Assembly: GCF_001282685.1 (NCBI RefSeq)
Contig: NZ_LN875035.1
Span: 2,404,001 to 2,468,000 of the forward strand
Reading direction: 5' to 3'
DNA length: 64,000 nt
From: Niameybacter massiliensis
Lineage (GTDB): Bacteria; Bacillota; Clostridia; Lachnospirales; Cellulosilyticaceae
The first letter of the stretch is position 1; each line of letters opens with the position of its first letter. Below the pieces are notes generated by a model, which did not search any database, was not told the DNA's origin, and saw nothing but the letters and a program-made list of their open reading frames with translations. The translations under genes and the position numbers were made by a program. This document shows positions 6,241-39,543 of this stretch, one piece after another.

Positions 6241-6311
6241 TTTGTATCCTCCCTTTATTTTCATATCATTATTAAACACTGTTGGATGGTCTAAAGAATA
6301 AATATTGGGTT

Positions 6312-6902
6312 AGGTGTGAGGGCATGTAGGCAAGCTTATTGTATTCCAACTTCTAGCCCTCGCCTTTTAAGACAGGCTAAGTTCATTCTATCAAACTAAC
6401 GGTCAAAACTCAGAAAAGAAGTTCACTTTTCTTCAAACATTTCCCTAAAACCAGTTTGATTCCATTCACTAAGCCTCTCTAAAAAGTCTGCGGTGAAAGT
6501 TTCCATACAATAACTCACCTTACAGCCCATCATATCATAGCCCTTCAGGTAGAGAGATAGCAAAAGACATTGAAATCTGCAAGTTTTTGCCTTCCAAAGA
6601 AGAGACGTTTGCTCTTCTTTCCTCTCAACGGCGTGTCACTGGAAGTGAAAACTTAACTTTCTGAGTAGAAAAGGGCAGTGATGCGTGGGTGACCTCCATG
6701 TAGCTTTTTTCGAGGATGGGCTTAGAAGGTGTTAGCGATTATAAAGAAAGGATTTTGTGCGAGTGTTTGAGCGCTAGCGAGTTTTCGCACATTCTGACTG
6801 AATAAGAGCTTACACCTTCTTAGTCCATTTGAGCAAAAGCGAAAAGGAGAACACACACGTAGTGCCGGCCGGACTACCTCACATAGTAAAAGTTTTCACT
6901 CC
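6312..6902. ncRNA. Candidate large structured RNA (about 600 nt), strand uncertain
   Basis: This 767-base gene-free stretch has no credible ORF but nested complementary segments: 6390-6397 with 6453-6460 (8 bp, plus GGT/ACC inside), 6412-6418 with 6426-6432 (7 bp), 6475-6481 with 6550-6556 (7 bp), 6596-6604 with 6612-6620 (9 bp), 6644-6654 with 6890-6900 (11 bp), 6716-6735 with 6809-6828 (17 Watson-Crick pairs of 20), 6756-6762 with 6785-6791 (7 bp) and 6859-6863 with 6873-6877. The 11-bp helix encloses the 20-position helix. In the latter one imperfection is G-U and two are U-U if read on plus, favouring plus; an extended -10 (TGATATGCT, 6927-6932) favours minus. No known family was recognised with certainty; OLE- or ROOL-like size only. 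Confidence 0.55.
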
Positions 6903-6979
6903 ATAAAATATTTATTTATTGCCTTAAGCATATCATATTTCCCCTTAAATATCTTTAATACAATTAGCCCAATCAATAA

Positions 6980-7010
6980 TTAAAGGGGCTGTTACCTACA
7001 ACAGCCCCTT
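6980..7010 (-). terminator. Terminator after the Tim44-like gene
   Basis: AAGGGGCTGTT (6983-6993) pairs with AACAGCCCCTT (7000-7010) around a six-base loop. The minus strand continues TTTAATTATT. It separates the Tim44-like/SPFH operon from the structured RNA region. Confidence 0.8.
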
Positions 7011-7046
7011 ACGTTCTATTTATTTGATGCTTAGCATCTTCAAAAT

Positions 7047-10860: not shown

Positions 10861-10960
10861 TGGCAGAGTAGATGTAAGTGCGTTAAGTGCTAGTTGGACG
10901 GGAAGTTGCCACTAGACGAAAAGCCTATGCTTGCGGTACTTACGTCGCATTCCGCTGCCA
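10861..10960 (+). promoter_or_regulatory. Tetrahydrofolate (THF) riboswitch
   Basis: The leader shows the class's conserved blocks in order: GGCAGAGTAGATG (10862-10874), GCGTTAAGTG (10880-10889), a variable hairpin (CTAGTTGGACG to CTAGACGAAAAG), GCGGTACTTACG, and GCATTCCGCTGCC closing the aptamer at 10947-10959. The closing GGCAG/CTGCC helix is perfect. THF riboswitches control folate transport and synthesis genes, and the next gene is a folate-type ECF transporter subunit. No clear terminator follows before the GGAGGTG ribosome binding site (10984-10990), so translational control is more likely. This would be an OFF switch lowering folate uptake when reduced folate is plentiful. Confidence 0.93.
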
Positions 10961-38857: not shown

Positions 38858-39361
38858 ACAACAAAAGCCAACCTAAGTTGCCCTCCCCTCCAAAATCACG
38901 GGCAGACTTAAGCTGGCTTTATAGGTGACATATTTATTCGGATTCTTAGTCTAATTTCATCAATAGGGTTTTGTGTAAGTCGTTGTTAGGTCCCTTCCTA
39001 GCCGATTCTCGTCCTTACGAAAGCGCCTGGTAACCCTGCCGGTGAAAGAGGTCGCAGTCACTTTACACCATTAATCGTCTGGCCACTTGTAACACATAAG
39101 AGGTACTATACGGTTCCACTTAACGTTTTACACAGTATGTATTATTGACTCCATTATAAGATTTGAATCCTCATTTATGCTTTCATCCTCCACCCTAGTG
39201 TCACCGCTAAAGTGGGAATGCCTAAGAAAAAAGTGTTCTTTTGGGAAGGGAGGCAAAAGTTAACTTGCTTCTTTCTTAGTGGTATAAGATCCTGAGTATC
39301 TAGAATATCAATCTCCTATACTTTTATATTAAGTGTTACTTGATACTGCATGTCTTTTGAT
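38858..39361 (-). ncRNA. Candidate large structured RNA (about 500 nt) with own promoter and terminator
   Basis: No credible ORF is present. A consensus-like promoter starts it and a 20-bp imperfect stem with T-rich tail (38864-38883 with 38900-38920) ends it. Internal helices: 38972-38984 with 39122-39134 (7 and 4 bp around a 2x2 loop, spanning 137 nt), 39190-39198 with 39207-39215 (9 bp with two G-U pairs only on minus), 39007-39012 with 39017-39022 (6 bp, one G-U on minus, loop AAGG), 39041-39048 with 39061-39069, and 39222-39229 with 39272-39279 (8 bp). The G-U pairs fix the strand. It lacks signatures of RNase P, tmRNA, SRP or known riboswitches, and the family is unassigned. Confidence 0.75.
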
Positions 39362-39367
39362 ACATTT

Positions 39368-39396
39368 AGTATACTCCTTTGAAACTTTTCTTTCAA
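39368..39396 (-). promoter_or_regulatory. Sigma-A promoter of the ~500-nt RNA
   Basis: On the minus strand TTGAAA (39391-39396) and TATACT (39368-39373) are exactly 17 bases apart. The start would be near 39361. No ribosome binding site or ORF follows. Confidence 0.8.
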
Positions 39397-39495: not shown

Positions 39496-39543
39496 AAAAA
39501 TAGGGTATAGAATAATGAACCCATTATTCTATACCCTATTTTT
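39496..39543 (-). terminator. Terminator after the SpoIID-like gene
   Basis: A perfect 22-bp stem (39496-39517 with 39522-39543) has a four-base loop. The gene's stop codon touches the first arm. Confidence 0.92.

Follow-up and report, generated by a model that had tools for sequence, protein, structure and literature searches.

The window analysed here, a stretch of 64,000 nucleotides from Niameybacter massiliensis, carries on its minus strand (39361–38858) a predicted RNA of ~500 nt that, judged by sequence comparison, belongs to a family of large folded RNAs not described before. In at least 25 paralogues, compensatory changes preserve a three-hairpin 5' domain, the terminator and two long-range contacts. 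The RNA appears to represent a new class, outside every Rfam family tested, and the family most likely consists of trans-acting, compact structural RNAs with phage-like ancestry.

The predicted transcription unit and its fold

The RNA is predicted to start at ~39361. Homology between the copies, of which covariance models gave 25, begins some tens to 250 nt 5' of the RNA, upstream of the promoter, and ends at the end of the terminator. The sigma-A-like promoter TTGAAA-17-TATACT, which the earlier note had described, was located at 39396–39368 on the minus strand. Sites of this type are not unusual by themselves (14 promoter-like sites compared to 12.7 in shuffled sequences), and a consensus match alone is not significant; the window promoter carries weight because other A-type copies have equivalent boxes in the same place. 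The stretch had also been called free of open reading frames. This held, as no ORF that overlaps the RNA reaches 60 aa and the three minus-strand frames contain 9, 10 and 16 stops. The intrinsic terminator, a hairpin followed by a short U-rich tail (38920–38864, minus strand), is where homology between copies usually stops. Its stem, AAAGCCAGCUUAAGU/ACUUAGGUUGGCUUU, has 15 contiguous pairs and then 4–5 more past a bulge, close to the ~20 bp claimed for it, and it was not caught by a consensus scan because its loop is long. The analysis thus confirmed 39361–38858 as a predicted stand-alone unit of transcription, free of ORFs and equipped with its own sigma-A-like promoter and intrinsic terminator.

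The unit is flanked by a SpoIID-like gene on one side and on the other by a gene for a 115-aa protein, putatively exported and with weak SurA_N similarity, that lies directly 3' of the RNA on the same strand (38743–38396). A perfect 20-pair terminator-like hairpin at 39498–39541, 3' of the SpoIID-like gene and just 5' of the RNA promoter, is U-rich on either strand and possibly bidirectional. When compared with its own shuffles, the minus strand of the RNA folded better (z = –3.18) whereas the plus strand hardly did (z = –1.30), which agrees with the earlier observation that G-U pairs in two hairpins form on the minus strand only. The earlier interpretation of the stretch as a large structured ncRNA with its own predicted promoter is supported by these comparisons and by those that follow.

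The 5' domain consists of hairpins H1 (39321–39282, with a conserved AUUCUAGAU/AUCCUAGGC tip), H2 (39279–39222, an outer helix of 12 bp and an inner one of 6 bp below a C-rich loop) and H3 (39220–39184, with a GGUGACA loop), all on the minus strand. All three covary, H1 in 19 copies. A central hairpin, GGUGUAAAG...CUUUCACC (39069–39041, minus strand), is the equivalent of a conserved GUGAUA...CUUUCAC element in other copies. The 13-position helix that the earlier note had drawn between segments 137 nt apart was found, in that GUGUAAAACGUU (39133–39122, minus strand) pairs with AACGACUUACAC ~136 nt downstream and the pairs covary in the four closest copies, one of them seen as CG, GU, GC and AU, but the helix is interrupted.

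Changes on both sides of a pair numbered 86 in ten copies (34 in shuffled and 15–29 in slid controls) and 224 in 19 copies (77 when shuffled, 39–71 for slid structures); because the alignment was fitted to the model these counts lean towards the model, and the slid and shuffled controls nevertheless fall far short of them. In the same 19 copies 86.8% of the cells were paired, compared to 58.6% after shuffling, all 41 pairs varied, and the covariation score was 0.755 against 0.229 for the control. Full-length alignments within A1, A2, B and C (MAFFT/RNAalifold) gave the same picture. A model of the homologues had been proposed as a check, and the homologues keep helices through compensatory base changes and not a reading frame, as would be expected of a trans-acting structured ncRNA.

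Two long-range loop contacts, PK1 and PK2, link the 3' end of the RNA with its 5' domain. In PK2 the strand CCUCCCUUCC of the H2 loop (39253–39244, minus strand) forms 10 pairs with GGAGGGGAGG in the terminator loop (38891–38882, minus strand), and the two strands covary across copies. The C-rich H2 loop and the G-rich terminator loop share 7–14 contiguous complementary pairs in every copy, and sequences such as CCUCCCCUCC and GGAGGGGAGG are present and still complementary in all of them. For 11 distinct octamer pairs, which were put in register by eye, 97.7% of positions paired with the copy's own partner compared to 82.4% with permuted partners, and none of 20000 permutations reached as high a value. 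The PK2 sequences, complementary and covarying as they are, fit pairing in cis and in trans alike. In PK1 the H3 loop sequence GGUGACA (39205–39199, minus strand) complements UGUCACC just 5' of the terminator (38930–38924, minus strand). This pair is found in the closest copies and is replaced in most others by GUGGCAA with UUGCCAC; the partner was read directly from the sequences where the script had picked the terminator's own AGCCAC. Copy A04, which has lost its 5' half, has a degenerate PK1 3' strand (UAUUACU) and an intact PK2 strand.

Paralogues, promoters and sigma-factor cassettes

A BLAST search of the whole genome with the window copy returned four further copies and a weaker sixth. 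A covariance model of the 5' domain, first built from five copies, gave ten strong matches, and successive models brought the number to 25, of which the weakest scored E = 0.064. This one genome thus has no fewer than 25 intact copies, diverged from one another, along with one 5'-truncated copy (A04, L004) and two 3' fragments. The later matches were all read individually and have the 5' hairpins, the C-rich H2 loop, a GUGGCA (or GUGACA) H3 loop whose partner stands 5' of the terminator, and a G-rich loop in the terminator itself. RNA length across the family is ~500–560 nt. On the strand opposite to copy A05 (L005/L045, C11:2075843–2076316) and adjoining it is an apparent gene for RNase P RNA, recognised by eye. 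The window also has a 767-base gap (6280–7046) in which no ORF reaches 90 aa, perhaps the other large ncRNA of the earlier note; a search of this gap with covariance model R1 found no copy of the family.

The copies fall by sequence and promoter into at least three subgroups. Group A comprises ten intact copies, including the window copy, with sigma-A-like promoters; group B has seven copies, and group C has eight, among them A12 and the outlier B15, which has a canonical sigma-A promoter (both keep the labels first given to them despite their placement in C). Eleven B/C-type copies have the unusual, non-sigma-A promoter pattern GASGRA-N16/17-GTATRTA, and B17, B18 and C24 match it loosely. The pattern is missing from B15 and from the A-type copies, including the window copy, which has TTGAAA-17-TATACT instead. 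The 16 sites in the whole genome are accounted for by 11 RNA copies, four cassette genes and one site elsewhere, compared to six sites for the reversed pattern; the pattern was drawn from these very sites, so this count is not independent of the RNA sites. We consider the near-absence of sites elsewhere informative. For the B/C-type copies, the 15 of 16 sites that fall at an RNA copy or a cassette gene indicate a promoter common to the RNA and the operon next to a sigma-factor gene.

This operon belongs to a small cassette at B19, C22 and C25, in which DUF1659-like, DUF2922, YvrJ-like and sigma-70/ECF-like genes come first, followed by a gene like those of phage replication initiators and then by the RNA. 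The names DUF1659 and YvrJ come from our reading of the sequences. The three sigma-DUF1659-DUF2922-YvrJ cassettes of this genome lie at L210 6922–8277, L208 11929–13229 and L211 3083–4282, and their sigma proteins are single-chain, sigma-70/ECF-like and 184–189 aa long. An Amidase_2 endolysin gene follows the RNA in the B19 and C25 cassettes; at C24 the endolysin alone follows it. The B-type RNAs and the DUF1659 gene of the B cassette have one and the same promoter, and the C-cassette promoters match those of the C-type RNAs. The link between sigma factor and operon is supported by the SigO-RsoA sigma pair of Bacillus subtilis, which transcribes yvrJ (PMC8103513). Our search of the literature on sigma-DUF1659-DUF2922-YvrJ cassettes found almost none.

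Distribution and origin

When the window copy was searched against the Rfam 15 covariance models, no family matched meaningfully at E values up to 10, and only sub-threshold chance matches were seen; the earlier note had set the RNA apart from RNase P, tmRNA, SRP and 6S by motif, and none of these models matched even at permissive E. Seven loci with copies of the other subgroups likewise gave chance matches only at E up to 0.5, and the ROOL, GOLLD and OLE models did not match the family copies tested. Elsewhere in the window, a THF riboswitch (RF01831) scored 92.5 bits at 10862–10959 on the plus strand.

No copy was found in 23 genomes of the same family by DNA search with two different queries, in 38 near relatives with covariance model R2, or among the top candidates scored from each of 392 genomes of the order and 391 of the class. 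Searches by blastn of a phage collection (both subtypes as query) and a plasmid collection (B-type query) found no relative. Three weak BLAST matches in order genomes were inspected and sit in or between unrelated genes without the family elements; the others have single-genome E-values equal to chance expectation over 392 genomes. DNA patterns in viral contigs gave one unrelated match and three without a model match, one pattern being too loose for use, and the three matches of one core pattern in GTDB-r220 contigs fell in unrelated phyla and were taken as chance. The family thus appears lineage-restricted, found so far in this single genome among those searched.

Neighbouring genes vary from copy to copy and lie in both orientations, apart from the cassette common to three copies. 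A replication-initiator-like gene lies 5' of the RNA in 3 of the 25 copies and an endolysin-type amidase 3' of it in three. We noticed no capsid or tail genes, and most copies lie among ordinary genes. Each copy having its own predicted promoter and terminator and the copies having no common downstream gene, the arrangement points to trans-acting ncRNAs. At the solitary copy B20, the 3' end of the cassette replication-initiator gene remains upstream of the RNA, which indicates that at least some solitary copies derive from cassette copies. Two prophage-like regions (L245 and L246, at C11:505495 and C11:2162626) have no RNA by model, and their replication-initiator genes share an N-terminal domain with the cassette gene. 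The recognised truncated pieces, L194 (C11:1347123–1347377), C11:2601280–2601372 and C11:1361840–1361906, have lost the 5' part and kept the 3' end.

The many scattered copies, absent from relatives, could also be explained if the RNA units were mobile, perhaps by means of a phage-like cassette, and kept their structure in order to propagate and not to serve the host. The cassette remnant at a solitary copy fits this explanation, as do the three 5'-truncated pieces (A04 and the two 3' fragments) beside no 3'-truncated piece found in the genome, possibly a detection bias, and multicopy motifs are routinely suspected of mobility (PMC11109978). However, the copy flanks inspected showed no transposase, no convincing terminal repeats and no obvious target-site duplications; every intact unit has its own promoter and terminator, the subgroups have diverged while each maintains the structure, and the B/C promoters match a resident regulator. 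We consider such a selfish repeat the strongest of the alternatives, though improbable.

A base-pairing regulator, in which the H2 and terminator loops engage mRNAs or 16S rRNA and PK2 in cis locks both until they are required, seems to us rather doubtful. The two loops, the C-rich one of H2 resembling an anti-Shine-Dalgarno and the G-rich one of the terminator a Shine-Dalgarno sequence, occur in every copy with their complementarity kept, but mutual pairing explains the loop-loop covariation, and an antisense RNA would need neither this size nor so elaborate a central domain. It is very unlikely that the RNA is a cis-acting leader or attenuator for the 115-aa gene, which lies downstream on the same strand at the window copy, since the unit is closed by a terminator and the genes beside other copies are unrelated and lie in either orientation. 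A decayed protein gene, which length alone would favour, is practically negligible given 9–16 stops per frame and the compensatory changes.

Interpretation and comparison with known systems

We find it moderately probable that this is a new lineage-restricted family of trans-acting RNAs of ~500–560 nt, descended from a phage-like cassette, with the B and C copies transcribed by the cassette sigma factor and the RNA in a scaffold or particle role. The ancestor would have been a phage-like cassette whose sigma factor, when active, would transcribe the B and C copies. Much like ROOL, GOLLD and OLE, the RNA may form particles or act as a stable scaffold, with C-rich/G-rich kissing loops that compact it in cis or join RNAs in trans. 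For such a role we argue from the kissing loops and by analogy with these three RNAs, which form RNA-only multimers with kissing loops among their contacts (PMC12286853). Counting against the explanation, relatives have the sigma-DUF1659-DUF2922 cassette without a model-detectable RNA, and the sigma-cassette promoter is missing from the A-type copies and from B15. The DUF2922 gene scores above its curated cut-off in 14 of 24 genomes of the bacterial family, most of the DUF2922 genes read adjoin a DUF1659-like gene that has a box similar to AGGGAA...ACATATATA, and the relatives have the same operon behind a similar box; the model found no RNA in those relatives that have either the replication-initiator-like gene or a DUF2922 cassette.

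A bolder version is speculative and improbable: a dedicated alternative sigma factor, SigO-like or phage-like in origin, would drive ~14 diverged RNAs, with about eleven under the housekeeping sigma factor, and copy-matched kissing loops would build oligomeric RNA particles. If it is true, hetero- or homo-oligomeric particles would form a genome-encoded repertoire of RNA building blocks with no known counterpart. Bacterial large structured RNAs without an assigned function are few, and the three with solved structures all form RNA-only complexes. With 25 or more natural variants in its genome, one organism by itself yields strong covariation data, and the sigma-factor link would make induction and function directly testable, which was an obstacle for ROOL, GOLLD and OLE.

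ROOL (Rumen-Originating, Ornate, Large) resembles the family in length, elaborate structure, kissing loops and an equally obscure function, and perhaps in a phage- or prophage-related genomic association. The ROOL covariance model does not match the family, however, and ROOL lies near tRNA islands whereas a few copies here adjoin endolysin, replication-initiator and sigma genes; the present RNAs also occur as 25 diverged paralogues in one genome and have a terminator loop that joins a long-range contact. GOLLD is another large RNA of obscure function; it is phage-associated, assembles into cages made of RNA only and is induced upon lysis (PMC12286853), but its model does not match, its helices differ, and many GOLLD RNAs exceed 800 nt compared to ~500 nt here. 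OLE, which dimerises, is likewise large and structured and occurs in Gram-positive anaerobes and extremophiles. It also differs in that its model does not match and in that paralogue amplification and association with a sigma cassette lie outside its definition. The SigO-RsoA (YvrI-YvrHa) system of B. subtilis is similar in that an alternative sigma factor transcribes yvrJ (PMC8103513) and the sigma gene here adjoins a DUF1659-DUF2922-YvrJ operon; here, though, the sigma factor is a single sigma-70/ECF-like chain of 184–189 aa, and the promoter also precedes large RNAs. The family thus appears to be like the large ornate RNAs in kind, and unlike them in its amplification within a single genome and in sharing a promoter with a sigma-factor cassette.
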